This document shows, piece by piece, positions 33,053-63,747 of a DNA stretch of 64,000 nucleotides (position 1 is its first letter; the number at the start of each line of letters is the position of its first letter). The translations under genes and the position numbers were made by a program. Origin of the DNA: Allacma fusca. Its lineage: Eukaryota; Arthropoda; Collembola; Symphypleona; Sminthuridae. The stretch is taken from assembly GCA_947179485.1 (NCBI GenBank), contig OX359249.1, positions 34,272,250 through 34,336,249 of the forward strand. The letters run 5' to 3'. Under the pieces are notes generated by a model, which was not told where the DNA came from, made no database searches, and worked only from the letters and a program-made list of their open reading frames with translations.

Positions 33053-36000
33053 ATGCTGCGTTTTAAAGCTCTAAATGGAGAAGAGAGTAGCTGCAGTGAG
33101 GCTGAGGACGATCCCTTCAGGAATAAGCCTACCCGAGAGGCTTTGGTGAGTTTGATTTTGTGGTTTTAGGTTAAATTATTAATAGCAAAGACTATGCAAT
33201 TAGTACAGGGTTTTTGAATTTTAGTGTAGTATTAAAGAGGGCTTTTAATAATTTTATAGGAAGAAGGTGCGGCATCGCTGTATAATACGGGTTTGCAACT
33301 GTTGTGTGAGTCAAAAAATGAAGAAGCGGCAGCGGTCTTTGAAGAAATTCTGGAATCGGCTTACTTAAATGTATGATATACTACCATGAACGGGCCTTAT
33401 GGTAGTATAAGGAGTCGTGAATTTAGTATTTACCAGTAATTTATTGAAATTGAGCTGTTGAAGGTTACTTATAAAATTGTGGGTAATGTGAAGTTTCTTG
33501 AAATATAGGATGAGGATGACAAATCTCCAATGCAGTCGCAAATGAGGCGAGGATGTCTTAAGAATTTGAGCACCATTTACGCGAACGACTGTAGTCGCTA
33601 CGAGTCCGCTCAGCGCGTCTTGTTGGAAGCTGTTCGATTGGATCCTAATAATGTCACTTTGTGGTGCCGCCTGGGACGTGTCGATATAAATCTGTCTGAT
33701 TACTACGAAGCTTACTACGCTTTTCAGCAGGGACTTAAATGCAGTCCTCACCATTGGATCTGTGTAGAAAATCTTGTCACTTTAGCTTTTGTATTAGGCG
33801 ACTACATATCGTGCTTATATTACTGTGGCTTGGGGCTAGAGAAAGATGCGTACTTTATTCGCGGGGCCGTATTTAGGGATGAGATATTCGAGTCTTCACC
33901 ATTTGTTGCGGAAACATGCAAGCTTTCGTTAGAGAATTGGGATAGTCTGTATTTGGCAGTGCCCTACGACCCATGCTGGAAAACTAAGTATTTAAAAGAA
34001 GCTCAGACGTTGATAGAGAAACGACGTGGAATTGTAACCCTTGCAAGGCAGAAGAAAGAAGAAGAGCAAAGCGAAAGCTTTATATGTAAAGACAGAATGA
34101 AATCCTTCACTTTGGCTGAGCTTTGTCAATCAATTTTTGATTTTCACCACAAGGTTCTTCATTTTGGGGTAATGAATGATTGTGTGTATATTTTTCCGCT
34201 TGATACGATTATTCCTACCACAGTTGGTCCTAATTTATATGTTAAAAATATCTAGATTCAAGCATTTTATAAACCAGTTGACATGAGTGCTTGCGTTCGG
34301 GATACGGATTGTGGGATGGAGAATAATGACGAAAATTCTATGGATGCTGCTAAAAGGATCGATGGCGCTGATGATACCAGTAGGCAGTCTCTCAATCGTG
34401 GTCGTTCGGGGGTCGATGAAAAGGATACTGGTAGCGGAGAAGCAGGATTTGATAAAAATAACGTTGTTGCAACGAATGGTATAGTATCTTTAGTACATTG
34501 TAGGCCGATAAAACATGTTGTATACCAACAGAGAGTTCATTATTTAGATCATCCTTACCGTCTAGAGTCATATCTGTAATTGCCTTAACTACATTATTTA
34601 AATTGGTACAGGAATTGCGGAGTTGCAAAGATGCTTAACTGATGAAGACTGTTCTCAGTCACAGCAATCTCAAGATACTCAGGAACCCGAACCAAAGAAG
34701 AAATCGAGAAAGGATGTGAAATGGTGGCAGTACGAGGGGAAAAGACGATCGCAGCGAGTTAGGGGGCATCTTATGCCTATTTCCCAAACCACATCGAAAA
34801 ATGAGAGAGGATTTGGGGAAACTCTCAAGAACTTAATCCATTCATCTTTGCTGTAAGTCACTTTAAGAGTAAGACTACCATCACTACATGTTCTTTCGTA
34901 AGTTATATGAAACTATTGGTAGTATTGCATTTAAAGTTATGGAGAACCGGAAAGAAGTTCTCAAGAAACCCACAAGCCCACCACGGAGACCGAATTAGAA
35001 TGCTATTTTGGCAGTCAACCCGAAATCGATGATGTGAAGAGATTCATTTGCACGTACGGGAAGACCAGATTCATAACGGTTATAACGGAGTTGGCTCCGT
35101 TTCTCTGCAAGCTAACTAACCATTCCACGTGGCCTACCAAACTTGTTAATCAGTATTTGGAATCGTGCAAGCATTACAGGTGAGTTTTTATCTGTTTACC
35201 GAAGCTTTGATGAAGTATTTCTGACTTAAGTGCTGTGTACTACACAACTTCCACTTCCCTTGATTTTGTTAGACGCTATCGCCAGGAACTAAACGAATGG
35301 ATGGCAGAAAACGATAGTGCCTTAAATTTGTTAAGACAAGACGCTCTTATCATCTTATCCATTGTGGAGTTTCGTTTGGATGATGCATCTCCTGGTACTA
35401 TAGAGGCATTGAAGTTTGACAGCGCATTTGTGTCAGATCTTGCATATCTTGAAATCGTATTATCCAATGGCCTGAAGAATGACGATCATCTCAGTATTCG
35501 CTATTATTGGTTTCGCGTCAACTACGAGCTCCTCCTAGCACAAGTTGGTCTCGGTTTGTACAAACTTGTACTACACTATTTGACACTCTTAGAAAAACTT
35601 TTGGAATTCGACCCCAGCTTCAATTTAAAGCTTGCTACTAAATCTGATAACCTAATAAGTCAGGATCAAGTTAAGAAAAAAATCAGGTTTGTGAAGAAAA
35701 TGGAAAACATTAGCCGCATCAGTGAGCTATATCAAAACCAGCAGTATGACGCTCTCATAGAAATCCTTCAGTTGTGCCTAACATCAGAAGATTACAGCTC
35801 AACGGATCTAATGAATAGGTTTTATCTCGCAGAGTCCTACTTCGCTTTGGGGAAATATAGCGAGTGCATTGCACAGTGTGTAAAAGTAGTGGGCCCATGT
35901 TTAAAAAGCCGCAATGATGAAATCCTTAGTAATTGTTTAAATTTAATTGAAAAAATGTGCATAGGAGAAAAGAATACATTATCGCTTGTTTCTATGAAGG

Positions 36001-39000
36001 ACAAGCGATCTTTGACTAACTCTATGATTGAAATACTTACCTGGAACGAAAACAAGGGAACTGTCTGTGAAACTGTTCTTATCATTCCATGGTGTATCTT
36101 ACATAGCGTTCTTTTTCATCTGGAAACCCAAGAGCCTGTACTGTACCTGGATGAAGAGACGGCCCCTAATTCAGTCGTACTGCTTCAATTTGCTCACGAG
36201 TTCCTAAATAGATCCAATAAATGTACAATTTTTGACGGGAAGTTACTCACCTACACGGTTGATGTGCTCTTTGCAATTAGAAAGACTGATGACCACGGCT
36301 CCTATGAAGAAACGAAACATTGTATTGAACAAGCTATATTTTGTTTGTACTCCCATCCCAGTAAAAAATCCAAATTGAAGTATTTAACTGAGCACTGTAC
36401 GAATGGAATTGATTTGCAATGGTCTAGATGTATTCAGCTGTACGAATATTACAAACCAGAAGATATCCCTGAGTTCGACTCATACCAGTCAATTAGTGCG
36501 GAAGTTGAAGGCTTATTTCAAAGAATTTTATCAGCAATGCCCGACGATCTCAAGCCTAAAGAACAAGATTACGAAGAAATGAAACAAGTGCTAGATGGTA
36601 GTATTAAGGAAAAACCAAACGAGACTAACGTCAACTTCCCCCTTCAACTAATTAATATCTACTACCTTTTGGGTGACCACTATTTTAAAACTAAGGATTG
36701 GACAAAAGCGGTCGAGTATTACACGTATGACTTAACCGTCATACCTTCCAGATTCGATTCATGGGCCGCAATTGCACTTTCCAAAGGAGAAATGATCAGT
36801 AGCAAACTGAATGCTTGTGAAAATTATGTTGCAGAAGAAGTTCTGAAAAACTCCGACATTGTCATCAATTGTTTTCAACGAGCTTTGGATTTGGAACCGA
36901 CCAATTCAAAAATAAGAATTGAATTCGGCTCTTTTGTTTACGCTATGCACTCGTTTTGTTCCAGATTGCTCAAAGGAGCCGAATCTTTAAGTTTTGATAA
37001 GTTTGACATTGTGGAAACGAAAAAAGATGCACTATTAAAGGAAGCAATTAACTGCTTTGAGCCGCTAGCAAAATCATACGGTGGAGTTAATGGGAACAGT
37101 GGAGATGATGATGAGCAGCATGAACTTTGGATACATCACTATTTGTTGGGTAAAGTCATGGAAAAACTGGATCATACTAATCCCGAGATGTTCCTCAACC
37201 AGTATGAATTAGCGGGCAAGCTCATTGCTGAACAAGGGGCTCCTTATCCTGCAAAAATCAACTTTTACAATCCCCCTGAACTCGCAGTCGAGGCTCTGGA
37301 GATTTATTATAGGTAGTGATATTTGTAGACCTATAAGGTAGTTTCTTTCTAGTAGGTAATATTGTTGTTCGTAGTTTGGTTTTTATATTTTAATTTTTAA
37401 ATAATTTGGCAGGATTCATGCCAGCATCTTGACGTACATTGAAAAACATGAATATGATGAAGAGAAAGAGTCAGTATTATCAGGATATATTAAAAGAGCT
37501 GCCTGCAGTCCTTTCGTGAAGTCTAAACAGAGTAGGGGTGGCGGTGGTTCAGAAACTAGTGAACGTAAGAGGAAGGCCAATGAAGGGTCTAAAAAGGTAA
37601 GGTCAATGTTACCTCAGAAATAAACTAACTCATTAATGTTATAATTACTTAACTCAAATAAGTGTTATGAATTTTTTAGGATCAGGTGGAGATACGAAAT
37701 TTGGTACAAGATATGCTTAAGAAGGTAGAAGAAATGATGAATAATGAAAGTAACGGAAGCAGTAGCTCTAGCTCAGATGAGGACGATGATGCTACTTCAG
37801 TTACTAGTTCTCAGGCTTCAACTCTGTATTCTTCTGAAGAAGAAAATACTAATCAGCCTTCTTTACCCCCGGTTGTACCAATGAGCTCGTTTGGGTTATC
37901 AGCATTTCAGGAGAAAATGAGAGAAAAGGAAATTCAAGAAAATAGAATTATGAAGGCCCAAACCACTGCAGCTGTTTCGAAATCCGCGGAGGATTCTAGT
38001 AAAGTTTCTTGTAGGCCGAGTAGCGCCACCAGTGTAAAGTCCGTACCTTCAGCGGAGCAAAATAAGTTTTACAAAGATTTTACAAGCATTAAGTACGGAT
38101 TACTTATATCTCAGTGCCTTTCTGCTCTTGAGGAATGTATTGTTCGATTTCCTCAGCACCACAAGTCCTACTTTCGAATTTCGTATATTTATGCAATATT
38201 AACGAAGAATAATTGGAAAATTTCTAAGGATTATCTCCTTGGAAGTGCCTCTACTGACAAAAAGAGAATTTCGGGGTTATTTGCTGACAGGAAGACTAAT
38301 AATTTTTTTAATGTAAGGTTTAATATAGTATTAACGAAAAAAATACGTTTACAATGGTCAATATATTTTCCTGATATAATGGTTGTAGGGTGTATGGAGG
38401 AATCCAGTTGATGATATTGACCGACCGGGAAGTTTTCCGTATCACATGGCTCGAACCATTCAGCATTTACTTGAAGTTCTTGAACGGCTCAATGACCACC
38501 AGCTGCTGGCGGAAGTTGCAATCGCATTATCCAAGGTTCCCGAACAGGATAAACAGTACCTCTACAATAGTGAGCGGCAGCAGTTTTCGCAGCAGGCGTT
38601 TTCGTCATGTGTGGGTGCTGCAAAACGATACTTTTCGTTAGCTCAAGATATTAAAGACGGAGCAATCTCAATTTTTGAAACATATCAAAAGCTCCAAAAA
38701 TTTAATGCAAAAGAGAACGTTCTTGCGTCTGTGTTACTGGATTGTTATAAACAATACCTGGAGAAGTTTGTAAGTCTGAATGAAACTATTTGGTTGCTGA
38801 TTTCCTAAAAATATGATTAAAAGATATGATACAAATTTTGTTTACTACATGCCCGTTAATTCGATTTTAGGGCCAGAGTATGGAAACAACAAGTGCAATT
38901 ACGCTTGATCATGCTTTTAAATTCTTCCAACACTTGACGTGGGCCTCGAAAACAAATCCTGGGTCTGCCAAAGTTATTGGTTCTAAAAATGCGAATTTAA

Positions 39001-41011
39001 TTGGCTCTGTTGCTCCAATAGTAGCCAATGTAGGAAGTCAAGATTTGATTTCTTTTATGGTAACCGTTTATAATACAAGCTTATTAGACGGGAAATGAAT
39101 GTGAACATTTAGTATCTTGCGTCTTTTGGTTTTAGGACGGAAAGACTACAAATACCGTCAGTGAAGTAACTGGAAGCTTAAAAGCTGAGAACCGGAAGAA
39201 AAAAGAATCTCTTGGGAGACAAGCAGCTGATAAACAGCAAGTTCTGAAATCTGTGTTCTCCACATCAAGTATTCAGGCATCTAGTTGGCCAAGGGTTGAT
39301 AAAAGCATTGCTGACAAAGATTTGGGACTTTCAAAGAAGAAGCAAAGTAACAATTTATTACCTTCAAATCTTCAGAACTTTGGGGATAACTGTTTTAATG
39401 TTGATTTTTTTGTGTAGTCCCTCCAAATGAACCTAATATACTTGCTGGAATGCAAGCAACTGTAACTCCCAAAGTTTTAAAGACCCATGCCTCTGTGTTT
39501 CCAAGTAATGAGGAGAAGATCAGAAGCTTACCGCCTACGAATTTCACAGAAAATAAATGGAAAAGTTATGTTCAATCCGAATACCTGAAGCAGACAGCAG
39601 GCGCTAACACGTCGGCAAATGACCCTGAAATAATTGACCTTTCGCATCATCGAAGTGATAACAGTAGGTTAAAAAGGCGAGCATCCGCAGATACTGATGA
39701 GGTCGACCCTGTGGCGTTAGTTCCTCCGAAGAAAGCAGCTATTCGCCGTGAAGGTTTAAGCTGGTCTAAGACCCAAGATGAAGCTAAGCTCGGAAACAGT
39801 GAAAAAGGCATTCAAATTATTAAGCCAACGACAGTCCCTACAAAATGTACGCCAATAGTCACTGTTTCTACGAAGAATACGCCGTCTGGCACAGCTCCTG
39901 CCATAGGCATACCAACGACTTCTACTTCGGGTGGTTCTATACCATTCAATTTATTTATGGAGTGCGTTAACAAAAATCCAAAAACGTATGATATTATTCT
40001 TGATGCAATTAATAAACAGTCCCTCACGAAACGCTACGACTTTTCAAGCCAACCTGCTCCCAACAGTAGCTCTGGAAAGTATATACCTTCGAGTCACGCG
40101 ATTCAGACTAAAATCTCCTCTAAGCAGCCAAATTCTCAGGATTCTTTGCTCATTGCACCATCCAAACCAGTAATAGTTAGACCAAGTAATGTACCGACAT
40201 CGTATTCACAACCATTGCCGTCACCAGCTCACTTACACAGTACTAAGGATTTTCGGGAAAAGGTGAAATTTCAAGCTGCATGTTCAAACCAACCTTCAAA
40301 AATGGGTGCTCCCGGTATTTCCAAGTCTGTTCCAGTGTCAGTGAATTCATTTTCGTCAAGAAACACATCCCCCTTCAAAGCTCAGACTACTATAGTGTCG
40401 AATCCAGCAAGTGATAAACCCAATCAAAGTATTGGGGGAATTACAGCTCATGATAACAATGCTACACCACCTCCAGCACACGGCCGCCGCACCAGAGCTG
40501 CATCCGAATGGAGTAGCGGGGATGAACCGGAAATTATAGATCTCACAACCCCACCCCGAAAAAATGACAGTGGTTTAAAAATTACAGAAATTACTAGCCA
40601 GCCAAGTAAGTACAGAATATTTACTGCACATCAGTGTTGATAATTATATTTTTATTTTAGGAGGAATTAATTACAGAATCGAAAAATTGATAAATATTTA
40701 CAGTATATCTGTATATTATAAAAATATATAAAAATGGATAGGTTAGGTATATAGATAAAAATATTATTTTGTTAATTATGGAATATTAATTTTTCTCGTG
40801 TTTGGTATCAGTTTGGCCTCAGTGTCAGCGATCTTTTGTAAGTATACATAATTTTTTATTTGCAGAAATTGTGAAACAGTCAGAAGAAATGTACTTTGTA
40901 GCAAGAACAACTACGAACTACCCTATGCCTCCGAAGAAAAAAATACAGGCGCGCCAACGAAATATGTCAAGTGAAAGTTCTGAAGAACCGGAGGTTATCA
41001 TCCTTGACTAG
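33053..41011 (+). CDS. CABIN1: CABIN1 homologue (calcineurin-binding protein cabin-1), complete
   Basis: Fourteen phase-consistent exons: 33053-33145, 33260-33370, 33509-34168, 34256-34478, 34612-34852, 34937-35179, 35273-37312, 37413-37596, 37680-38312, 38389-38769, 38871-39059, 39136-39346, 39418-40605 and 40866-41011. They encode about 2180 residues (human 2220). It starts MLRFKALNGEE. TPR-type repeats follow (ESAQRVLLEAVRLDPNN; YYLLGDHYFKTKDWTKAVEYY), and GVWRNPVDDIDRPGSF in exon 10 is the clearest family match. Exon 9 holds a Ser/Asp/Glu-rich stretch. The C-terminal third is Ser/Pro-rich and disordered, with three PE(I/V)I motifs. The family is part of the HIRA H3.3 chaperone complex and inhibits calcineurin and MEF2. 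Whether the calcineurin site is kept cannot be told by eye. Confidence 0.93.
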
Positions 41012-43991: not shown

Positions 43992-45166
43992 ATGCCCATA
44001 TTTTTAGTCCATTTTGATTTTAATTTTTAATTCTCATATTTTTAGTCTATTTTGATTTCAATTTTTAATTCTCATATTTTTAGTCCATTTTGATTTTAAT
44101 TTTTAATTCTCATATTTTTAGTCCATTTTGATTTCAATTTTTAATTCTCATATTTTTAGTCCATTTTGATTTCAATTTTTAATTCTCATATTTTTAGTCC
44201 ATTTTGATTTCAATTTTTAATTCTCATATTTTTTTAGTCCATTTTGATTTTAATTTTTAATTCTCATATTTTTAGTCCATTTTGATTTTAATTTTTAATT
44301 CTCATATTTTAGTACATTTTGATTTTAATTTTTAATAAATATTTTTAGTCCATTTTGATTTTAATTTTTAATAAATATTTTTAGTCCATTTTGATTTTAA
44401 TTTTTAATAAATATTTTTAGTCCATTTTGATTTTAATTTTTAATAAATATTTTTAGTCCATTTTGATTTTAATTTTTAATAAATATTTTTAGTCCATTTT
44501 GATTTTAATTTTTAATAAATATTTTTAGTCCATTTTGATTTTAATTTTTAATAAATATTTTTAGTCCATTTTGATTTTAATTTTTAATAAATATTTTTAG
44601 TCCATTTTGATTTTAATTTTTAATAAATATTTTTAGTCCATTTTGATTTTAATTTTTAATAAATATTTTTAGTCCATTTTGATTTTAATTTTTAATAAAT
44701 ATTTTTAGTCCATTTTGATTTTAATTTTTAATAAATATTTTTAGTCCATTTTGATTTTAATTTTTAATAAATATTTTTAGTCCATTTTGATTTTAATTTT
44801 TAATTCTTATATTTTTAGTCCATTTTGATTTTAATTTTTAATTCTCATATTTTAGTACATTTTGATTTTAATTTTTAATAAATATTTTTAGTCCATTTTG
44901 ATTTTAATTTTTAATAAATATTTTTAGTCCATTTTGATTTTAATTTTTAATAAATATTTTTAGTCCATTTTGATTTTAATTTTTAATAAATATTTTTAGT
45001 CCATTTTGCTTTTAATTTTTAATAAATATTTATAGTCCATTTTGATTTTAATTTTTAATAAATATTTTTAGTCCATTTTGATTTTAATTTTTAATAAATA
45101 TTTTTAGTCCATTTTGATTTTAATTTTTAATAAAATTTTTAGCCCATTTTTCCCTTAATTTTTAAT
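43992..45166. repeat. 36/38-bp minisatellite array
   Basis: About 30 tandem units of an AT-rich repeat with the core TTTTTAGTCCATTTTGATTT. Two unit types exist: about 38 bp ending TTAATTCTCATAT and 36 bp ending TTAATAAATAT. Type 1 fills 43992-44330, then about 13 type 2 units, two type 1 units, and type 2 again to the end. A rare AGTAC variant unit appears at both type switches (44301 and 44844). Confidence 0.95.
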
Positions 45167-46070
45167 GCATTCATATTTGTCAATTGTATATTTAAATAAA
45201 CCTTATGTAGCTAATTTACATTTAATAATAAAAATTGTATAATTAATCGTATATGCAACTAGATGCTATTGCCTCTCTAACTATATGGGTAGGGAGGCCC
45301 GACGTGGTGAGCACTGTTTCTTGCGCTCCTTGCATTTGCACCGGTTGTCACGTTGTTGGTAACTCATTTAAACGACAGTGAACTGTTGACTCCTTTTGTG
45401 TGTCATTCTGGTGAGGGAAATTGAATCGGGTGAGAGTTCCTATTACGTATACATACGTACTATCTTGAAAATATATTTCTTTCCAATTAAATATAAATAA
45501 TATTTTCAAATTCAAAGAATTGCATGAAATAATTAATCGTGTTTTATGTAAATACTTTCAACCTTTACAGTAAATCTGAATTGTGATCAATTCGATAGAA
45601 GGTGAGGAGAATTAATTGTTATCGGATTATTTGTAATTAATTCAATTTTTTTATTATTGTTATTTTAATCAATAGATCAAATTTAATTTGTTTTTGATCC
45701 TTCATCCAGTTCAAGTTCAAATATCATTCTGTTTATCAGATTGATTTTCATTTCTTGATGATAATATTTAACACTTAAGTAAACAGTTGTGTATCAAACA
45801 TTAAGTGAACATTGCACTTTTTCAATTAATACTTTTTACTTTGACGGCCCTGCAATTCAGGTGTGTAACAAATTTAAAAAAAAATGTTATCACATATAGC
45901 CAGGGAAATATTTAGTGGAATCAATCATTTCGTGGGAACATAGATTGTAATACTTAGTTTTTGAAAGGTTCAGTAAGTAAATCAAGGGATGGATGATTGG
46001 ATTTTGGATTGTGAGAATTAAGAAGAAATAATTGTGTGAGTAATAGAAAGTATGTTTTGTTGTCTTACAG
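45167..46070. other. spacer and NDUFAF2 upstream region
   Basis: AT-rich spacer, ending in a good acceptor (TTTGTTGTCTTACAG, last base 46070). The NDUFAF2 leader therefore has at least one untranslated exon upstream, not located. Confidence 0.45.
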
Positions 46071-46082
46071 ATTGTTTTCAAA

Positions 46083-46770
46083 ATGCCTAAAGAAAGAGAC
46101 CTGCTGAAAATTATTTGGACAAATTTTATTAATTCTCTGAGACCTAGGCAGTTTAGAGGAAATCTAATGGGGGAAGATAAATTGGGAAATAAATATTTCG
46201 AAATTCCTGCAAGTAACTTGTTAGTTCAATTTTCAGTTATTAGTGTTGAGTGGTGAGACGGAAAGTCAGTCAAATGTGGTATTTTCATAGATCCCAGTAT
46301 AGGCAAAAGGAGGAACTCCCGTTACTTTGAGCCAAAAGTGAAAGATCGGTTTGATCAAGACCTTCCTTCGGAATGGGAATGTGAGCACTACGGAATGATG
46401 TTTAAAAAGGACAATTTCATAGAATAGATGTGTTTAGAATGCAATAAATTTTGAATTGCTCTAGCATGGCTCCGTAATCGTCGAGAGAATCCTCCAACTT
46501 TAGAGGAAATAAACAGGAATCACGAGATTTTGGAGCTAACCCGCAAGAATGCGGCAGAGAAAGGATACATACCGAAGACAGCAATTCAGGAGAAAATGGG
46601 AGTAAATTCTGATTTATTTGATGCCTCCGTACCATTAATTTATTATGATTAGACAAGTGGTTGAACAAAATTCTGATCTTTCATTTTGTATGTTTTCGTA
46701 GACTTTCCCAAGACACGAAGAGTACGAGCTAATGCCTGGGGAGAAAGAAGATTGGAAAAAAGAAAAGTAA
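46083..46770 (+). CDS. NDUFAF2: NDUFAF2 (mimitin) homologue, complex I assembly factor
   Basis: Four exons, 46083-46212, 46291-46380, 46465-46601 and 46702-46770, join in phase (1, 1, 0), giving 141 residues (human 169). The start MPKERDLLKIIWTNF is followed by MGEDKLGNKYFEIP, matching the family's GTDQFGNKYYYIP-type block. Exon 2 gives RYFEPKVKDRFDQDLPSEWE and exon 3 WLRNRRENPPTLEEI, equivalent to the conserved WxxWIRRxRxxPPTxEE motif of the NDUFA12/NDUFAF2 family. The C-terminal half is shorter than in vertebrates. The protein takes the place of NDUFA12 during late mitochondrial complex I assembly. It is convergent with SMIM15, as in vertebrates. Confidence 0.88.
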
Positions 46771-46847
46771 CATTTTCATTGAAGTAGGAAATATTCGGTA
46801 AAAAACGCCTGCAGTGCAGTGTAATACGTTGTTAATTTTAATAGTCA

Positions 46848-46853
46848 AATAAA
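46848..46853 (+). terminator. polyadenylation signal of NDUFAF2
   Basis: AATAAA 78 nt after the stop codon. Confidence 0.55.
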
Positions 46854-47217
46854 GTATGTACTTGATATGGTTATTGTATTCCTAATGTTTTCAATTGCTG
46901 GCATAATCGTTCTTAAATGTCATTTGGAGATACAGTAGTAATTCAGGGTAGAGCATGATTAGCTCTCCAAAAATTACTTTTAATCCAGTACAACACAAGA
47001 CATTATCTGTAAATGCCCTAATTAATTAACAAGCCTAACTAAAAATTAGGCCTCAGTATCCGTGTAGTCAATATGTAAACCCTAACACAAATACACTTAA
47101 TGTGCTTCAACGAGTAACTTGCGTACAACATTTCAGAGATCAGTTCAGAGTAACTTTTATTTGTGACATTCCTGGAATGTACAGAAATACGCACCACACA
47201 CGTACACAACATTGTTA

Positions 47218-47223
47218 TTTATT
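47218..47223 (-). terminator. polyadenylation signal of SMIM15
   Basis: AATAAA on the minus strand about 185 nt after the SMIM15 stop. Confidence 0.4.
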
Positions 47224-47407
47224 TTTACAAACATCCATGATAATTTATCTCAAATTCAAAAACCAATAGTAGGATAGTACTTGACGAGCGAGCCCCTTCA
47301 AATGCACATTAACTCAGGATAGATTCTCCACATTAAAATGTATAACTCCGCTCGTTTGTCCCAGCCCAGTCAATCATTGCAGCCGGTCTTGATCAAGTAC
47401 CCCTGAC

Positions 47408-47689
47408 TTAATCCTGTTTGCTGCTGTTACTCCGCAGGGTGCGAGTTGACCTGGGTTTCGTCGGTGAGGACACTCGCTTTGTACCTTTTTTCCTCTCCTT
47501 ATTGGACTGGGCCTCAAAAGATTTGGATAGCTTCCAGGACAAAATCATCGAGATAATGAAAAGCGGTGACAAACATAAGAAAAGGTAGTACAGGAAATCC
47601 CAGGGATTCTTCAAAATCCATATCACCCACTCTCTCCACCATTCCTCCAACGCTGAAGTACTACCAGTCTTCAAATCACCCTCGTCCAT
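47408..47689 (-). CDS. SMIM15: SMIM15 homologue, small single-pass membrane protein
   Basis: A single coding exon of 93 residues with ATG at 47689. The frame remains open upstream but without ATG, and TTGATTGATTCTAG just upstream may be a leader acceptor. After an acidic N-terminus comes EEWWREWVIWILKNPWDF. A hydrophobic segment follows (residues about 31-49, YYLFLCLSPLFIISMIL), then SWKLSKSFEAQ and a Lys/Arg/Ser tail. The KNPWDF, L(S/T)PLF and SWKL blocks match vertebrate SMIM15 (74 residues), whose function is poorly known. The tail is longer than in human. Confidence 0.85.
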   Translation of the reverse strand: MDEGDLKTGSTSALEEWWREWVIWILKNPWDFLYYLFLCLSPLFIISMILSWKLSKSFEAQSNKERKKGTKRVSSPTKPRSTRTLRSNSSKQD

Positions 47690-47759
47690 CGTTTGTGTTA
47701 CTCTACTCAATCTAGAATCAATCAAAAAATACTTCCATTAATAACCACAATTACAGTAC

Positions 47760-50721: not shown

Positions 50722-53545
50722 TCACGTACTCATGAAAACCACTGAAGATGAAGCCGATAACTTTCGACGCCTGTTTGCTTTCACAACTCTTCTCAATATG
50801 ATCCCTGAATTGTCCCATGTTAAATTACGAGCATGTTTCGGCCTCTTTGTGGAATTGGATACCCTTCGACTAATTCGACGGTTTAAAGAATAGGGTTTAC
50901 AACGGGATTCTATTCTGATTTCTTGACACTGCTTGCACTGAACTTCGCAACACCACTGAAAACGACATTCACACCGGTATGAGACGGATAATGGTTTGGA
51001 ATTCCATCCACGGCCACAGCAAAGAATATCACATGAATCTTCCCCTTCAGATGTTGCATTGCATAAACGGTTTTCAGTACCGGTAAGACCTATCAGCACA
51101 AAGTATTCAAAATCAGAATAATTAATAATTGTCATGTTCATAGTAGTTCATAAAAAATGACTGTCATCCGGCCAAAGAATGATACACAATGTGTCCCATT
51201 ATTTGTAAATCCTTTTTAGAGATTTCACGAAACTTTTTTAAAAATAGATTACCGGAAAACATTGAAGTACAATAATAAACTAAATCATACCTCTGGATCG
51301 ATTTAGGTAGCAAAAATCTGGGGATTCCTCAAAATAGATCAAATTTGATTTGTTCGGTTTCTTTTGAAGTTTATCAACGGGAATCAGCCGACCAGCTGGA
51401 TCGATAGTGATTCTAATCGCCCCATCATATCCTGCTTTCAAAGAGTCTCCAATAGATCTCATACTGGGTAATGTCCTCCAACAGGTCTGCATTGTACAGG
51501 AGCCACTCAAGCCGTGGCATTTGCAGAGAGTTGGTGCCTGCTTTTCAAAAGCCTAAACTTGCACAACAAATCAAAAAGAATCAAAAACTACATTTTGATT
51601 CCTTTGAATGACATTTTAATAAACTTGTATGTACGCTGGCAAACAACAATGCGGTATTAAAATCTTTTTATGCTTGCAATTGTATGTAAGTATGTAACAT
51701 GTAAAGCATTTTGCCAAATCTGACTTCAACATTTCCATTCACAATACATCAAAGGGTTCCTCATTACAGAATACGGCCCAACAAAAAACACTGGATTTTT
51801 TAACAGAACTTTACTTCCTTGAAACTTGAAAACTAAATTTATATGGCAATTGTATTCCGAGGGCTATATTTTAACACTATGGACACTAAATCCTCATAAA
51901 ATTTTGTCATAAAAATATATCATCTAACTCTTCAAGATTGAAAAAAAATATACAATAATTGTCTCCCTTGCTCAAAACGATCAACCATTTCAAATTTCTC
52001 CAAAATTGATTTTGGGTTCGAAGTGTAAAATACAGACATGCTTTCATTTCCAGGATTACATTTCCTATTTGAATTATTTTAGATTCCCGTCTAATCGTAA
52101 GATAAACAAATAAGAATATACAGTTACACACCAGCTTGTTGTTTCTGCTCATTGAAGCATATTTTGCAGAAACGTGCTAACTAATGCTAGAATGCATAGC
52201 AAAATGTTTTTCGAAATTCACACACAATTATGAAGGGTGTATTGTAAAGTGAGTAACGCTCATACTTACTTGCATATAAATTTTTAGTTTTAATTATTTG
52301 AAAAAAGTTAAAATATTTTATGATTTAAAAAAGGTTTTTATATGTCGAGAAAACCATGGGCTATTGGTATTATTACTTAAGAAAATAGGGAATCAGTAAG
52401 TACACTTCTAAACTTACTTTTCTTCCGGCACGATTATTGTGTAAAGTAGCTTTTGTCTTTGCATCATGAATGTTACTTTCTCCAGCATCAATAAACCGAC
52501 GGACGAACTTTAAGCTAAAAATCACATTCTGTTCACAGCCTTTCCATTTAAACTTGGACGATTCCGTCGTTGTGTTAGATTTCTGTAAGTTATATTCATC
52601 CAATCAGTAAACCCTCACGTTAATCATAACTTGCATAGATTGATTGACTTGAAACAAAATTCATTGTTGTCTCTTCTTCTGCTGAAATGCTAATTGGAGA
52701 AGCATTAATTGATGAAACAAAAATATAAATAGTATCTTTAAAAAAATAATTTGACAATAAAATAAGTAACAAATTACTTCCTATTGAGATTTAAGACATT
52801 TGAACCTAATATTTGTGATTTCATCATCCCCCAAAATTTAGTATAACAAATAGAGTATCCGCAACTTTAAATTGAAATTGGAAGTTACCGTAGATTCTAG
52901 AGAACACCCACAAGATAATTTTCCGGACGAACAGTCCTTAGCGACGGAACTTATTGCACTTGCTGTAATGATTGCATGGATAAAAGACAATTCCCGCGTT
53001 CCCCCTAGAAACCGTGTCAAATAAATTATTACTACAGCAATTCAATCAAAACGTGCTTTCTAAAGGGATACTTTTGCTGAGAAAGAAATTTTATTGTAAC
53101 CTCGGACAAGATATTTCCCAAACACTGAAGGATCACGTTCGATTGTGGAACAATTCCATTTATTTGAACGAAACTGATATTGACACTCAGTAATAGCACT
53201 TCTAACTCCTTCAACAATGCTGTCAATAATTTCTGAATTTCTCTGACATATTTGCCGTTGCTTCCTAGAACCTTTCGGAATAAGTTCACATAAAATCCGA
53301 GGGTTTGAATCAACCTCCTTCTCAAATTGGCTCAAATACCTGTGGAAAGAGGTGAAAGAAATTAAAGATAGACAGACACACAGGTGAAAGTTGAATTGTA
53401 AAGACGATGTTGCTCGATGAAATGAAAGTTGCTTGAACTTTCGTATTTAAATAACGAGAACAACTCACCACCAATTAGAGTCAACCATCTGAAAAACTTC
53501 CGTTGAGACAATAAGAATACGAAGAAAGATATAATTAAGATACAT
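50722..53545 (-). CDS. Wnt2: Wnt family ligand, Wnt2 subfamily, with long basic C-terminal tail
   Basis: Six minus-strand exons (53469-53545, 53101-53339, 52889-53004, 52418-52582, 51291-51552, 50722-51089) join with phases 2, 1, 0, 0, 1, giving 408 residues. A signal peptide begins MYLNYIFLRILIVS. It is followed by SNWWYLSQ, like the SSWWYM start of mature vertebrate WNT2. Then come CELIPKGSRKQRQICQR, ECQYQFRSNKWNCS, FGKYLVRGGTREL, HNNRAGRK and CKCHGLSGSC, whose serine is the Porcupine acylation site. YFEESPDFC and the Cys-rich end CCGRGWN...FQWCCEVQCKQC are intact. The last conserved Cys is followed by 56 extra residues rich in Arg/Lys. Neighbouring ST7 supports Wnt2. Confidence 0.88.
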
Positions 53546-53549
53546 AATC

Positions 53550-54930
53550 ACAACATGGGATTTAAAAGGTGTCACAAAATAGTACCGTCTGACTAGACGG
53601 GTAAAGGAAATTTCGCCGGGCTTTTGTGCTAACTCAATAACCAGGTTGCGATTCTTAGTCAAACTAAATACGTAGTGCCTCCGAGAGTGGTGCAAGGTGG
53701 GTTGAAAACATCTTTGTCTATCTACTATTGTTACGTTTTGAAAATGTTTCGCCAACGCTAAATGGAGGCCATAATGTTTGTCATGAACATTTCTCCGACA
53801 CTCAGTGTTGGGGGAATTTGCCAGAGCGTGAGGGTTTGTCTCCTGTCTATTCGGCGGGGCTTCAGGAGATACGCCCAAATTTACTGGATCACCGAACACG
53901 GACTTCTGTCCAATATGATATGTAAGGTTACCTCTCTGTTTTCTGTCCTACAATGAACCGACGGTCCTCCTTCCTTCACGATTACATCTCACCATCCTCT
54001 ATCAGCTTTTATGAGTTTTCGACTCTTTGATCTCATCTCAACTATACACTAATCGTTTTCATTATTCCTTACATTGTAGTACCCTGTAAAGTTCGCTTTC
54101 TAGTCACAATCAAGCCGACATTCCACGAAGTAATAATATCAAAGTTTCCAACCCTGTCTTTGCGTGCTCTCTTGAAGCGACTATCATCATGATACTGGAA
54201 ACCACTATAGATTCTCAACAACTGACACTCCAAAACAGCTTCGAGACCCTTATGAAACTTTTACCAAGTCACATCTTGTGAACTGCCTCTCCAGTACTTG
54301 ACCATTTCAGTTTCTATCTATAGACAAACCTTTACTTACATATAACTGCAATACCATACGAAGTCTTCATTACTCCTTACGATCTAATGCCTCCACTAAT
54401 GAATTGTTCCTTTATTGCATTTTCTCTAAAATTACGATAATAAAATCATCAGTGGCATATTTTCATAAGTAGGCACAACACAACATCGTATATTTGTATG
54501 ACCACAGGCTCCAACAGTTTTATACGTCGCTACAATAAACAAAGCGTGAAGATACGCACATACACATACATAATAAATGTACCAATATATACATACACAT
54601 GTATTGATGTATACATTCACGGATATTACGGATTCACATAATAACTTGCGCGTGCATGTTTTCTCCTTTTAACCAAACAAAAATATTTTAGTGAAAAGTT
54701 ATGCAAATACATCCCTGATGCCCAATTGACTGTTCAGCTTTCACCGACTGCTATTTAATATCGGAAACCTACAATAAAGAATATAAAATTCTCCACAATT
54801 ATCAAAAAAATGTATTTAATATATTTAGTTCAGCTGTGAACCCGGGCACGGGCTGTTTCAACACTGTATTTTACTCTACGTCAGAACTATAGCCTGTCGC
54901 ACAAGCACATGACAAATAGTTTATAGAATA
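53550..54930. other. Wnt2 upstream region, no other gene seen
   Basis: Probable 5'UTR and promoter of Wnt2 in the first part. I did not identify a core promoter. Overlapping short plus-strand frames near 53728-53956 are not supported. Confidence 0.4.
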
Positions 54931-54948
54931 CTCTCTCTCTCTCTCTCT
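54931..54948. repeat. (CT)9 microsatellite
   Basis: Nine perfect CT units. Confidence 0.95.
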
Positions 54949-55196
54949 ATCAATAGTAAACCTTTCAATCACTGCTAAGAGACACAAAATCACCCGTATG
55001 TAAATACAGCTTCGTGCGACTACGACGCTGACTTTTGGCTACTTTAATTTTCCTTACGTCATCTCTTCGAGTATTACAATTTTGCAGCGTTCCGAAATAA
55101 ATAGAGTAAAGAGGTTGTAAGTGCTAAAATGGTTAAAATTAGACTATTACAAATAAACATCTGGACCCTGCCGTTTTTGCGACAGTTCCGCTACTT

Positions 55197-55260
55197 ATGG
55201 ATCGGGGCAAAGAGATATTTCCAGTCATTTTAAGCCTCTCTCTTTGTTATTTGCAGGTAA
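55197..55260 (+). other. candidate signal-peptide exon or recursive splice site
   Basis: ATG at 55197 opens MDRGKEIFPVILSLSLCYLQ, which looks like a signal peptide, and then meets GTAAGT at 55257. The same point is also a good acceptor: a pyrimidine-rich CTCTCTCTTTGTTATTTGCAG abuts GTAAGTATT, the form of a recursive splice site. No phase-compatible next exon could be proved. Confidence 0.25.
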
Positions 55261-58200
55261 GTATTTCTTCCAAATATGAAACTTTCAAACTCTCATGACT
55301 GATGATGACACTGAGAATAAGGATAGTGCTTTATATCGTACCTATTGTAATAAATATCCCCACAAATATTGTAATGTAGTTTCAAGATTACTCCTCCAAG
55401 CTGATTGGTAATACCCCAAGTAGATCAACATCATTCGGGGGTGCAATAATAAGTATTAGTACCGCATTATCTGATTTTGTGAGGTAATATAGGAGGATAA
55501 CAATAACAGAAGCGCGACGAATTTTGAAAGTCTTCTTGGATTACAGATTTAAGTATCTAAGCCGTTTGACAACTGTAACTGTGTATACGAAGGATTATGT
55601 GCTCATAATTGTAAACATCTATCCATGCACTGTGGAATCACTCATGCTTTTCTTGGTTTCCTGCAAATATATAATTATACATATGCACATACACGATTTC
55701 GTTCCATGGTGGGGTGTGGGGTGAAAACCCTAAAGTAAAACTTCATAAAACTCTAGGCGAAACTAAATATTTGAACACTATTTTCTCATTACTGCACACT
55801 GCCAGGAGTCTAATTAAGGATTCCTTCCTGCTTCATTGCTGGGACAAAGTCCCGCCTCCATATGACTGATGAGCTTGAAATCAAGAGTATGAGCTATTTT
55901 CAGAAGGTCACAGATTAAAACCTTTTAAATGAATTTATTACTCAGGACTTTAGCAAAAATAACATTGAAATGGTGACAAAATAGTGTATTATTTGTCAAC
56001 ATGATAACATTTTTTAGTTAACTAAAATTATCAACCTTGACTTACTTTACTGTTATAGCAATACACCGTCCTTACTACCAAAAGTCTATACAGTAAACGT
56101 TTTGCTCAAAAGACAAGGTATATGGTCTACATTAAACTTTTAGTTTAGTTATACAATACTATAATGGATGTTAACATTTTATAAGTTTATTACATGACGA
56201 ATAGATCCTTAAATATTCATATAGGTAAATATAAGTACGTTAACAACACTTACGCATCTGATATTTTGATTGTGTAGGAACAAAAAAAACTCCTTTGCAG
56301 CTTCCTGTTCTCAGAGTCTTTTGTCATATTCACAAAGGTCTACAGTGACAACAGCAAACATCAATTAGCGATAAAGTATATATATAAAAAAGACAATTTC
56401 AATTAAGTTCAGAGCACTGGTAGCTGACGACACCTTTTACATACACATCAATGTCACAATCTTTTACTGAACACTACATGATGTAGAACATATTTCCACA
56501 TCACCTTCACAAAAGATCTCACGAAGTATCCTCCTAAAACCACGTAGCTTAACCCTAAAAAATTTGAGGTGCTTCCTCATGTTACGTACATCTATTTCTT
56601 CCCTTTTAGTACTCATCTTTCTCCATTTCATATTAGCAGGTTCTGTAAAAATAATTCGTTGCTAATTCACAAACTACTTGGAGAATCTGTCCACCTACAT
56701 GTACAATCAAGGGGAGAGCATTCAGGGCATATACATATTATCATAACCAAAACAATCTACTTTACCTCTGTATTTAACGTCCATGCATCATAATAAATTA
56801 TTATGTATTTGCAATTATTATTGTATCCATGAACCAAGTTTTGCTTTTACAGTGCATTTTTGTGCTTTGTTAAATGTCAAAGTATAAACAGGAAACTTGA
56901 CTTGTGTATCTCAAAATACTTGCGATTTTTTCTGATCAGTTTTTTCCCTCACAGTGAATCACAAAAAAGAAGTCTTTTGCATCGCAAGGGCAGAATTCCG
57001 TTTTAACTTGAAAAACCGGCTACCAGCGTTGACGTTAATGGTAAGTAATAAATATTTTTATCCCGGTATATCATCTGAATGTACATATAATGCGACATAA
57101 GTTGTACAATCCGTGCTTTATGCAGTAATATTTTTCTTTAATTTCATTTATAATGATAAATCTCTCAGCGCGAGAAAATCTCATGCATTTGATCATAATT
57201 CCCCAGTTAACCGTATAAATCACGTAGTTACATTGTAACAGACTGAATAATCACTTTTGGTTAAAGTCATAATCATTACAACATACACTGGTTCAATCAT
57301 AAATACGTAATTACCTACGTATACATAGTCCGCACAAATTAGTTCATAAGACAAAAACTACTGCGACAGGTTTAAATTCAGCGTTTTCTAAAACAAGTTC
57401 ATGCAGATGTAGGTCCTGGTCATAATGCACAAGTTGTTAAATACTAAACATTTAATATAGCCGTCTCTTCGTTCTACAAGTGAGATTAAGAATACAGACG
57501 ACTCTTATCAACGAGAAAGTAATGATCACTGCCGTCCGGTAACTTTTATTGTTGAGGTCGGAGGTAGACAGAAACTCTTAAATTAATAGTAGTAATAATA
57601 TTTCAGCAACATGCAAAAATCATATAATCTTCACACCAAAAGTCACCGACATGGAGGTTTGCGCGAAGGTCTTTAAAATGCGGTACAATATAATAGCTAT
57701 GGTTGGCCATGTCCAAAGGAAACAATCAGGTGTCGTTACAAATGTACGTGTGTGTGTGAGTAGAAACATAAGCCACCAAAGCTTAGGAGGTATGCATAAT
57801 ATGCGTTCATAATTGCTAAGTGAGTATTATAAACAGAACTTGAGTGAAGACTGCAGATTCTCAGTTTCAATATCATCAATAAAATTGTTACATCCATTCC
57901 AAATCTATCCTTTGTTTAGGAAACTACCACAGTAAACAATATTGTAGCGTAAAGAGTAACTTGTAGTTTTACGTAGGTAATTTTGGCTTTCAGACAGTCA
58001 AAATAAACATTTTGCACTATAATACTTAATTCCTCATTACTAATAGCTGAGAGAGTGTTGATTCTATGCAAATTAGACATCAACTGCGACCCAGAAGACA
58101 ATGTACACCACATGGCGAATGAAGTCTACCCAGTCATCATTTTTCGCTCCCAAATCATTCGAGCGATCTCGCAAGACGTGTTATCATAAAAAGAAAAGCA

Positions 58201-60990
58201 CTTTCTACTAGCCGATGACAAATGAGCAACAAACATTGGCATTGGCACACAAGTACACCTCAAAGATATAAATTACTAACTGCAAAGTTTCAACAGAAGT
58301 AAATGCTCTTCCTAAACAACATTTACAAAAACAAACCGTAAATAAGTTCTTAGATGTAAGAGACTTTATTATCTTACTTCAAAAGGGAAAAATTACATGG
58401 ACACATTTATAAACGTCTGACATAGTTTCGAGACATTTATCCCTAAAATGTTAACTCCACGACCTACATAAGCAAACAATGTTAATAATTTGGTATGACT
58501 AGTGACTAGTCTGTTGAGTTTATGGTAGCGAAGTATTAAAAACCCGTCGCAGGGTGCTATGACAACTTTTTAACCTCCAGATTCAGCACATAGAGCAACT
58601 GAACCTTACCTGAACCGACTGATACAATTATTCCAAATGAAAAAACTAAAATTATTAATCCAAAAATGTCACAAATGAGACATTTTACTTTGTCCAAGTC
58701 ATTGCATGCCCCACGGCAGCAACTAATCACATACATGATTCCAGCTTATTTCTCTATCGACATTAAAAGAATTTTGTAGATTAAGTACATTGTCATGAGA
58801 GCCAGGTGACATAACAGCGGCTTTCAGAATACAGAAATGGAATTTTTAATCCTACAGAAATATCCCAACGTTTCAGAGACCAGACTATCTAATAAATACA
58901 ATGTGTAGAACTTTCACTCAAAGTACTTTAATAAATTGGGGCTATCAAGACGCTTCTATATGAAATTATTATTTCAGGTATCAGTTTTGAAGAATTGAAA
59001 TACGTATTTAGTTCTTCAATTATGCCAATTAATAATGTAGGCTTTGATTGGCAACGCTTTTAAAGGATAATTTAAATTAGTAATAAAGTAACCTCTACAA
59101 GCCGTTCATATTTACAGAAAATTTCTGTAGGTGCATTTCTTTGATTTGAGTGAAAAGTGAAGAAAACTGTCCAACTCCTTTAAATAAATGCAACAGAGAA
59201 AGGGAAAATTTGTTGAAGTGAAATTATGCTGCACTGTACGTCTGAAAGTTTGTCTTGCACTGGTGAACACTGAGCTCAAAACGAAACAAGGATGAAATAA
59301 TAATTCTAAATAAATTCAACTATCTAATTTTTCAAATATGAATAAATGTGAAAATCTAGTACATATTGCGATTTTTTCAAACTCCACCGTGATTCTTGTA
59401 TCAGTCTACTTGCAACAGGTACTAATATAGTATTTTTTACAGAAAATTATGAAATCGTACTTACTATAAATTGCTAAAGGGGATACACGCAGGATACGAG
59501 CATACATTTGAAAACAGCCGAAAAATTAAAATCAAGTACATTTTCTTTTTGCAGGGATGTCATTGCCAAGAAATAGCCTGTGATTTTGGAGGTACATAAA
59601 GCCCATTAATAACATGAGCAAGTAATACGGTTGGACAGGCACCAGCGTTTATGTGTACTCTACGGTACCTAAGCGATATTACGAAGTTAAAACTAATAAT
59701 ACATCGAAATAGCAATATGCGAAACAGCCTAACACAGTCAAAATAATATTACTAACTATTATAATGCTACAAAAGAATAATAATAATTACTAAAATTATT
59801 CAGAGAACTAAACCGCCTGATGACGGACACTGACCGTATCCGAAAGCTCGCATATTGTCAATAAATCACTCGCATCATAATCCGAGTTAACCGATTAAAA
59901 TGCTCAGCCATATAAACAATAAACAAGCACCGACTAATTCTGATACGCTACCATTTAAATAAGAATTAAACCTTAACTACTCAGACATTCAATGTTACAA
60001 CCACTTAATTCATTATTCAATATGTACTTGAATATGCACACACGTTGGAAAAATTTCACAGTCAGGAAGGGGAACATGCATTGAAACAAATTAGTACTGA
60101 CTGACTACTGAATGACGTATGCAACTGTCACTAACAAGCCACCCAGCAGAGCCAACTGATGAAGCCATTTATTATTATTACACAGAAACTGAATAACAGC
60201 TTCTAAGAAATATTACGGTATAAAAGGTTTCAATAGTTGATAAATCGCGGTTACTTGCGAGCTATAGAGTCATCGATCTGTTATTCATCTAACTGTTCTA
60301 ATAGTTTTTATACTTTTGTCATGAATCGCAAAACGCAGAGTCTCTTCGTTTCTCTCATACACAGACAATTCAGTTAAACAATATAATTCTACCTAACTAA
60401 ACAACTAATGTACTTGTGGCCAAGATAATTTATACTTATGATTTGTCTCCACAATTCTCTACAAAGCTAAACTTATACAAAAATCAAATAAAAATTATTT
60501 CTACGTAAGAGATCAATTTTCAACTGCAGTTTTTTTGCCTCGACGAAAGCGGTAACGTAACTGGCAAAAACTATACTAACCAATTACACATAGGTATAAT
60601 AACATTGGAGTTTCAACTCTTCCCCAAAAGTTTAAACTTCAAGAGGCAAAAGGAAATTTTATAATCTTAAATGCTAAGAGAATTCTATGTTGACGTCCAC
60701 GATGCCATTTTCTTCGAAAACGTATTTTTGTGCAATCAGAATTATGCAAAATATATCACACTTAAAAACCGAGACCCTAAATAGCTTCATATCTTCTGTC
60801 TGTCTATACTATTAAGAATTAATAGAACAAATAATTAATGAACGATTTTGGGTCAACAGAGGATTTGCTGAAAATCATGTCACACTGCTTACTTGTACAA
60901 GCCAAAAACATGATGACGAATTGTAGCTTAAACAGCATTACGTCATAAGGTGTTAAGTCCAAACTCGCTGAGGTGGTTACACTGTAATAA
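55261..60990. other. spacer between Wnt2 and ST7
   Basis: Mostly AT-rich DNA without recognisable genes. Two exon-like plus-strand islands exist: 56955-57040 (after TCCCTCACAG, before GTAAGTAAT, open in one phase with EVFCIARAEFRFN) and about 59555-59591 (after CTTTTTGCAG, before GTACAT, reading GCHCQEIACDFG). I cannot assign them. Confidence 0.35.
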
Positions 60991-63747
60991 TTAAACACGG
61001 GATAGCATCTGAATAAGGCTCGACGGCAGAAGAGTTTCTAACTTGTCCAACAGATAAATTATTGGTAATGATAGCCACCCCACCACCTAAGGATTCCCAA
61101 AATTTAGGAAATTAAACTTTGCCTTTGTACATACAATATTTTTAATTCGCCGTTTTAACATACAGTTTCAGCAACATACCGTTTTCGCGACGACAGCCAT
61201 GTGATCAGGATACTGATGAGTTAGAAAAGCAATGAGAGCAGTAAAAGTACACAACCCTGCAGTGAACATGATAAAGAACGGAGTCTCACGTTCTGGGAAG
61301 ACGCTCACTTCATGATGTGCTGTTACAAAACAACAGTTCCATTAAAATCATATACTTTGCATACTGGGGCTACAAAAACACAATTAAGAGTACTAAATTT
61401 GATTACCCGGAAGAATCTCTCTGTCGGGACACTCTGTGCAAGGAGGATAGGGAAAGAAAAGATTGCCTTTCTCTAAGGGCCTGGGTATAGATGCAAAAGT
61501 TCCTTCCCATGTGCATGCCAAAAGTTGTAGAGCTCCATCAACTCGTTTCCAGTGTGGCAAATGGAAGAAAGCGTACGAGACAGCCTCAGAATCGCCGCGT
61601 TTCAGCAAATGTTCAGGTGGAAATACCATGGGCTTCAATTCCAGTAAATACTAAGAGAACAACCATTTGATTTACACTGTACTAATATTTGTGTGAGGTA
61701 CTTCGTTTGTACACTTTAAACACAAGGTAAAATCATTTACCTTAGGAACGTGAGGGTTGTACTCAACTGCTCTGTGAATGGCCTCAATGGCAGTCATCTC
61801 GGCAGAACTGAGTCCACGCTTAATCAGTCCTGATTCCGTCACGAATCTGTAATAGTAACCATGAATATGTTAATAGCGTCGGAATTAAATTGACATTACA
61901 AATACTCATCGATTTCTACTATCCCAACACATCTTTGACTGTCTTACTTGTCCGAAACCTGGCGAACTTTGAGTAATGCAGAAGTATAGCACAATGTTGC
62001 TGACCGTGGTACAGAACCATCGTCATATTTTGCAAGAACAGCTTGGACATCAGCATAGGCTTGCATCTCCAGTAAAGCTTCAATGAGATTTTCATGAACA
62101 TGGAGAACGCTCATGATGGGATGAACTTCTTTAGTTAACTACACGAATGTAACCCAACATAAACGCATTAAAATCTACCAATAATAAATTAGCATACATT
62201 TTGTGTGGAAACAAAAAGTCTCAATCTATACTTACATCTCGAAACATTTTCACAGCTTCCTTCAATCGACCTAACTTCCTAGCGCACATTGCTAAGCGTC
62301 TTTTGATATAAATAAGAACGTTAACATCTCTTCCTGGAAAACCATAAAATATTCAAACATCTGATCTCATTCATTCATTGATCACTGTGAAACTTGACAA
62401 ATGCACATACTGTGTAAGCTATCGCTGCTCGGGCCATGGATCTGGGATAACTGCGACTTCTTTAAGTTAGATTCCGCGGATTTCAATGCTTGCTTTAACA
62501 GCTTTTCACTATCAGTAATTGTGAGCGCTTCTTCTTCAGCAAGAAGAATATACGCTGTTGCACAGTCTGGATTCTTTTCTATTGCCCCTTTCGCAGATCG
62601 TATTCTCTCCTGAGGATTTCTCTCTCTCCACGCAGTCTGCATTACTACAATAAAAAAACATCATAGAGCATGTCATTTCGTACCAATTACCCTCAAACAC
62701 TACAAACAACTTTAAACTTACAGGAATACTCAGGTCTGTTAGAGTCATTATCACATGTAAAAAATGTTTGATGATCTTGAGCTGATAAATTCATGTCATA
62801 AAAAGTCAAAGGATCTTTCTTGGTTAAGTGAAAATATCGAAGATACTCAGCTCCTCTGAAGAGATTCAACGGATTTCTCCAAACCTTACAATCTGCAAAA
62901 TCAAAGAGTTTACATTACAAATCTAGTAACACAAATCCCAAGCACACTTTTCAATCAATTCTCCCTTTACTCCCTATCCATCAACCATCGTCAGCAAAGA
63001 ACCACGCAATGCCCACTACGTAATCCGCCTACCTCGGGGCCACAAAATTATACCCCATTGTAGCTCCCACTTGCCCACCCAAACCTGAACTCATGGATCT
63101 TCACCTGAAACCAAGTGTCCCAACGCATCCCCAGTCTTTACTGACGACATACCGTACACTTCCTCACATATGAACATAAGACAATTATCCTACCAGATGA
63201 CGACTGATTCTGACTTGTTGTAACAGTTCCATTCCCCTCACTACTAGCATTTCCATTAGTTGAATAGTCAGGTGGACCCAGTAAAGGACCCAAATGATTT
63301 AGAGAAACTTGTTCTATAAACGAAGTCCCATATTTCCTATAGTACCACCATTCAAATATCTGTAAAAAAAAAATCACAATCATTTTATATATCCCATCCT
63401 CTCCTCAACTCCTTTAATCCCCAAACGTTACTCACAAGAATTAGCCCCGAGATTAGGGAAGACGTGCCTGTCAGCGCCACATAGAACTTAGGTGTCAAAG
63501 AGCTGAGAAACATCGTAGCTGAAAGTTAAGGAATCAAACACTGAATTACTAATTTGTGACAATTTACTTTTCAAAATGACATTTCCAACAGAATCAATTT
63601 CCTACCCATTCCAATATTTTCACTTATTTTTAAAGGTCCCCGCAAGTAATACAGCACGAATACTACAAGAAGAAACCAGAATGCCCACAAATACGTCCAA
63701 GACCATACAATCCAATTTTTAAAGTTCCTCAAATGGATCAAAATCAT
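60991..63747 (-). CDS. ST7: ST7 homologue (suppressor of tumorigenicity 7), complete
   Basis: Eleven minus-strand exons: 63606-63747, 63436-63518, 63194-63359, 62722-62892, 62411-62644, 62236-62333, 61948-62138, 61741-61846, 61407-61650, 61180-61319 and 60991-61086. All phases agree, giving 556 residues (human 585). The N-terminal membrane segment reads [19 protein letters not shown]. Then come [95 protein letters not shown] and CTWEGTF. A C-terminal pair of hydrophobic stretches ends [12 protein letters not shown]. This is nearly collinear with vertebrate ST7, a multipass membrane protein with TPR-like helices. ATG at 63747 is the first in frame after an upstream stop. Confidence 0.95.

Follow-up and report, generated by a model that had tools for sequence, protein, structure and literature searches.

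In human chromosome band 7q31.2, the gene ST7 adjoins WNT2, the 3' untranslated region of which faces ST7 as judged from the positions of single-nucleotide polymorphisms, and CAPZA2 lies beyond ST7 (PMC5649647). Comparable neighbourhoods have been described elsewhere in the Wnt family: atxn10-wnt7 and fbxl14-wnt5 are conserved gene pairs, and retention of the first has been attributed to introns of atxn10 that harbour control elements of wnt7 (PMC8851819), and amphioxus has a Wnt2-Wnt16 cluster (PMC6060547). That ST7 and WNT2 adjoin each other in human is already known, as are ancient Wnt neighbourhoods as such. Here we describe an ST7 gene and an adjacent, probable Wnt2 gene from the springtail Allacma fusca, located in a stretch of 64,000 nucleotides (C5:34272250-34336249, hereafter the window) from an assembly that totals 392,743,791 bases over 91 contigs. 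Springtails (Collembola) are non-insect hexapods, and the original prediction was thus right in placing an ST7-Wnt neighbourhood outside vertebrates. Contig C5 (55.59 Mb, 14.2% of the genome) would be chromosome X1 of A. fusca, which would put the window on X1; the other contigs named below are C8 (chromosome 2), C9 (X2), C10 (chromosome 3) and C12 (chromosome 4). Taken as a whole, the locus is in our judgement probably best explained as a gene pair orthologous to ST7-WNT2 of vertebrates, a presumed remnant of the gene order of the bilaterian ancestor.

As the original prediction had stated, ST7 and a Wnt gene lie next to each other on the same strand. Two intact models, 63747..60991 and 53545..50722, are both on the minus strand, head to tail with ST7 first in transcription order, and their coding regions together span exactly 50722..63747:

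60991..63747, minus strand: ST7 gene; 11 coding exons, 556 amino acids, ATG at 63747, stop codon ending at 60991
63747-63606, 63518-63436, 63359-63194, 62892-62722, 62644-62411, 62333-62236, 62138-61948, 61846-61741, 61650-61407, 61319-61180, 61086-60991, minus strand: the ST7 exons
53546..60990, no strand: intergenic stretch from the ST7 stop codon to the Wnt start codon; 7,445 bp, no gene detected
50722..53545, minus strand: Wnt gene and probable Wnt2; 408 amino acids from 6 coding exons, ATG at 53545, stop codon ending at 50722
53545-53469, 53339-53101, 53004-52889, 52582-52418, 51552-51291, 51089-50722, minus strand: the Wnt exons
53469..53545, minus strand: first exon of the Wnt; hydrophobic start MYLNYIFLRILIVSTEVFQ, with a DSNWWY motif
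50722..50898, minus strand: C-terminal extension of the Wnt and its stop codon; 58 residues, rich in Lys/Arg, after the last cysteine

The upstream gene belongs to the ST7 family. A 517-residue piece joined by eye matched Pfam family PF04184 over nearly its full length (model positions 2-503 of 533, E = 1.1e-264), and a spliced alignment to human ST7 gave 365 identities among 546 aligned residues and located the C-terminal exon. When the whole genome was searched with PF04184, in a profile search that scores only the best candidates, all ten exon matches reported fell inside this gene. Its reading frame is intact and its introns sum to 1,086 bp, the gene of only 2.8 kb being far shorter than human ST7; GT-AG borders were found in all 15 introns of ST7 and the Wnt together.

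The downstream gene belongs to the Wnt ligand family, whose marks are a conserved number of cysteines and the serine motif CHGxSGSC. An early exon join, with some linker residues missing, matched PF00110 at positions 6-305 of 305 (E = 6.3e-92), and the final model has an intact frame of 408 amino acids with 24 cysteines and the motif CHGLSGSC. The N-terminus is hydrophobic as judged by eye, making it a candidate signal peptide, and the codon of the second W of DSNWWY is interrupted by a phase-2 intron. The human reference Wnts end within about fifteen residues of the last cysteine, against 58 in this protein.

An intervening gene, the observation that the original prediction had named as speaking against it, was looked for in the 7,445-bp gap and none was found, which confirms that ST7 and the Wnt are directly adjacent. 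Across the whole window, neither an RNA family (Rfam at gathering thresholds) nor a tRNA (ARAGORN) was found. A codon-usage scan revealed no convincing exon in the gap (best segment 5.4, compared with 12.7 for the best ST7 exon), the scan being a weak one because the real Wnt exons listed score only 3.6. A hexamer coding scan gave negative scores for every segment listed and was discarded as uninformative. The longest frame reaching the gap (53468-53947, the 3' end of which is Wnt exon 1) had no Pfam match, this check covering that frame alone, beside which there are 70 others of at least 40 amino acids. A segment of 7,421 bp from the gap, compared with the whole genome by a tool that skips very common words, matched its own place only. 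Under uniform placement, the chance that any of the nine Wnt loci of the genome would fall within 7.45 kb of ST7 is about 3e-4. The predicted change of orientation was likewise borne out for WNT2: the human gene turns its 3' end toward ST7 (PMC5649647), whereas the A. fusca Wnt turns its 5' end toward the 3' end of ST7.

The nine loci come from 36 exon matches to PF00110 in the genome, and seven of them were named from spliced models and five trees (22, 19 and 18 rows). Wnt1, Wnt6 and Wnt10 are grouped on C9. Wnt5 and Wnt7 form a convergent pair on C10, Wnt5 being placed with 61/98 in one tree and starred in the others. Wnt4 lies on C8 at 48.69-48.70 Mb (91/58, 96/92, 93/88, 93/90 and 90/72 across the five trees), and Wnt16 is on C5 at 33.785-33.803 Mb (98/98 and 100/99 in two trees). 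The ninth locus, on C12 (38.372-38.376 Mb), scores about as close to WNT4 as to WNT5A and is a candidate WntA. None of the nine was assigned to Wnt8, Wnt9 or Wnt11, any of which the ST7-linked Wnt or the C12 Wnt could be. Of the human reference Wnts, two besides WNT3 and WNT5A were checked, WNT7A and WNT8A, and both were identical to the PDB sequences. PDB matches at E <= 0.001 comprised Wnt3, 3a, 5a, 7a, 8a, 8 and WntD, with no Wnt2 and no WntA among them, and all trees and tests were run without any WntA reference. Two collections were searched by pattern for Wnt genes of other animals; the matches, 15 from genome_contigs and 92 from viral_contigs, included no relative.

Judged by its sequence, the ST7-linked Wnt is compatible with Wnt2 and leans there, without singling Wnt2 out. 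Its spliced-alignment scores are highest with WNT2 (711) and WNT2B (707), followed by WNT4 (667), and a column bootstrap of the BLOSUM score gave WNT2 as best in 62%, WNT4 in 16%, WNT1 in 12% and WNT5A in 9%. It was placed as sister of WNT2 and WNT2B in a tree without WNT8A, WNT9A and WNT11 (57/69, unstarred) and in one from which the C12 Wnt had also been removed (64/74, unstarred), and a tree constrained to hold it with WNT2/2B was 0.45 log units higher than one of the 22-row free trees. Its WWY motif is shared with WNT2/2B.

Several results weigh against this assignment. In both 22-row free trees the gene stands apart from WNT2, on a long branch; a weak grouping with WNT2/2B appeared when three long human rows were dropped, and none when all 22 were kept. 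Approximately unbiased (AU) tests rejected none of its placements with Wnt1, 3, 4, 5, 6, 7, 8, 9, 10, 11 or 16 at 0.05, the lowest p among these eleven alternatives being 0.064 (WNT9A). By identity WNT3 (40.7%) and WNT5A (40.2%) come before WNT2/2B (40.0%), and counts of private residues put WNT7A (10) and WNT8A (9) ahead of WNT2/2B (7). For human WNT2 and WNT2B, the scores on other A. fusca Wnts exceed those on the ST7-linked gene. The WWY motif is present in the Wnt16 locus as well, for which the spliced scores also put WNT2/2B best and the score bootstrap calls WNT2 (59%) over WNT16 (35%). In a control on the seven loci that had received tree-based names, the score bootstrap was correct for six, with the Wnt16 locus misnamed WNT2, and private residues for five, failing for the Wnt4 and Wnt7 loci. 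The failure of the score bootstrap on Wnt16 slightly weakens the ST7-Wnt2 reading.

Better support for Wnt2 than that given by sequence comes from chromosomal linkage, which does not depend on the adjacency to ST7. The original prediction had offered that adjacency as an independent argument for Wnt2; used so it is circular, the adjacency naming the gene and the name dating the adjacency, and independence can be claimed for the linkage to Wnt16 and to other 7q31 families on the chromosome. Wnt16 lies 0.52 Mb from the ST7-linked Wnt, on the same strand of C5, with a probability of 0.27% of falling so close by chance. This linkage matches the arrangement of amphioxus, where a Wnt2-Wnt16 cluster occurs and where ST7 is absent from the main text of the source (PMC6060547), the Wnt2 identity in A. 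fusca being a deduction of ours. Grouping of the Wnt16 locus with WNT2/2B was rejected (p-AU 0.027), as was its grouping with WNT2/2B and the ST7-linked Wnt together (p-AU 0.030). The possibility that the ST7-linked Wnt arose by recent duplication of Wnt16 was considered and discarded, since pairing of the two loci was rejected (p-AU 0.0098) and they are thus not recent tandem copies.

The CAPZA, CortBP2 and IFRD families, which belong to human 7q31, are on C5, the same chromosome as ST7. Among the 7q31 families located, four of six are on C5 when Wnt16 is included (binomial p = 0.0047) and three of five without it (p = 0.023); the families were hand-picked rather than random, IFRD and AASS having been added after the results for CAPZA and CortBP2. 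Other human paralogues of CortBP2, CAPZA and IFRD lie outside this region. Two families count against the linkage, the AASS domain family, on C10, and ING3, on C9. ING has three loci, the C9 copy being ING3 by spliced score (489), so that ING3 speaks against C5, and the C5 copy being nearest ING1 (178). The Shal family had no match anywhere in the genome and is uninformative. As an observation apart, the saccharopine dehydrogenase C-terminal domain at C10:38.084-38.088 Mb gave two tandem sets of matches, suggesting an AASS-like tandem duplicate.

The ligand that the original prediction called Wnt2 is therefore likely to be Wnt2, by linkage to Wnt16 and 7q31 families more than by sequence, which does not establish the name. 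If the name is right, adjacency of ST7 and Wnt2 in the bilaterian ancestor follows by parsimony, and the bilaterian part of the date given in the original prediction holds on that condition, its "or earlier" being unsupported.

The neighbour of ST7 may instead be WntA or a member of another fast-evolving subfamily, with Wnt2 represented by the C12 Wnt or lost, and the adjacency would then be due to chance or left over from an earlier block of Wnt genes. We consider this unlikely, even with the tree placement unsettled in a reference set that lacks WntA. Grouping of the C12 Wnt with WNT2/2B, which would also tell against the assignment of Wnt2 to the window, was not rejected (p-AU 0.216, 0.257 and 0.386), nor was a position of the ST7-linked Wnt as older sister of both Wnt16 sequences (p-AU 0.283 and 0.385). 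However, the score bootstrap of the C12 Wnt favours WNT4 (62%) and WNT5A (29%) and gives WNT2 only 2%, compared with 62% for the ST7-linked gene, in the same test that misnames the Wnt16 locus. It is moreover on C5, and not on C12, that Wnt16 and the three other 7q31 families are found, the proximity of Wnt16 having the low chance probability given above.

A second alternative, in which the gene is Wnt2 and its adjacency to ST7 arose anew, aided by a shared ancestral chromosome, appears quite improbable. The orientation unlike that of human would fit it, as would the distance of 15 Mb that separates CAPZA from ST7 in A. fusca, when CAPZA is near ST7 in human (PMC5649647); local order on C5 has thus been shuffled. 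Against it, the chance that one named Wnt would come within 7.45 kb of ST7 is 3.8e-5 genome-wide and about 2.7e-4 on a chromosome of 55.6 Mb. Finally, an assembly error joining distant genes is scarcely credible: the published assembly has a contig N50 of 1.0 Mb, but it is chromosome-scale, with a consensus quality of 58.7 and 98.82% of the sequence in chromosomes (PMC10427803), and both frames are intact in a pair that lies within 13 kb.

Other features of the window were also noted. At 46047-47737 two genes lie tail to tail, less than about 1 kb apart: on the plus strand a member of the NDUFA12 family (PF05071, E=2e-6), which we take to be NDUFAF2, and on the minus strand a member of UPF0542 (PF15086, E=6.8e-20), presumably SMIM15. 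Human NDUFAF2 and SMIM15 are also convergent neighbours on 5q12, and the window may thus hold another ancient gene pair. At 33509-40637 the plus strand carries frames that encode a large TPR protein, presumably CABIN1 (TPR_2, E=6.8e-10 in a frame of 700 amino acids). A minisatellite with a 36-bp unit and about 32 copies (95% matches) is present at 43998-45166, and fits a drop of guanine-plus-cytosine content to 20% at 44-46 kb.

Returning to ST7 and its probable Wnt2 neighbour, the Wnt2 product would be a secreted, cysteine-rich and lipid-modified ligand signalling via Frizzled receptors, as known for the family, and ST7, a membrane protein unrelated to Wnt, is not known to act together with Wnt2. 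In vertebrates, WNT2B, ST7L and CAPZA1 form a duplicate of the ST7-WNT2 block. The A. fusca pair resembles atxn10-wnt7 and fbxl14-wnt5 in that a developmental Wnt gene is retained beside an unrelated neighbour, and it may have been kept together by Wnt2 control elements in or beside that neighbour, as proposed for wnt7/atxn10 (PMC8851819). In A. fusca itself the ATXN10 domain is about 0.55 Mb from Wnt5/Wnt7, in contrast to the 7.4 kb between ST7 and its Wnt, and the short introns of ST7 leave little space for intronic enhancers. Since these introns total so little, the putative control elements would lie mostly in the 7,445-bp gap. We further put forward, as a tentative and rather doubtful proposal, that ST7-Wnt2-Wnt16 could join Wnt9-1-6-10 and Wnt5-7 as a third Wnt linkage of ancient bilaterian origin, ST7-Wnt2 being its tightest part, held by Wnt2 elements within about 7.4 kb.

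Among the literature matches listed, ST7 and Wnt2 were mentioned together only in two human studies (PMC5649647, PMC5696175). No report of their adjacency outside vertebrates was among these matches, and a 2012 survey of ancient microsynteny among metazoans in Genome Research may include the pair. Folsomia Wnt16 is already published (PMC9631999, PMC7616481), and no published report of a springtail Wnt2 or Wnt4 was found among the matches listed. In insects Wnt2 and Wnt4 are given as lost (PMC3003278, PMC9389326) and Wnt16 is reported lost in the holometabolous ones (PMC3003278), with non-insect hexapods termed non- or under-represented (PMC9389326). Since this springtail keeps Wnt4 and probably Wnt2, the insect losses of these two genes would postdate the split between springtails and insects.

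If the Wnt2 identity is right, ST7 and Wnt2 have been kept adjacent in arthropods as well as in vertebrates. There is no agreement on why neighbourhoods of Wnt genes are conserved, and the compact arrangement in the springtail confines the search for a cause mainly to a single stretch of 7.4 kb. Should the proposed ST7-Wnt2-Wnt16 linkage be true, the enhancers responsible could be found directly in this gap.

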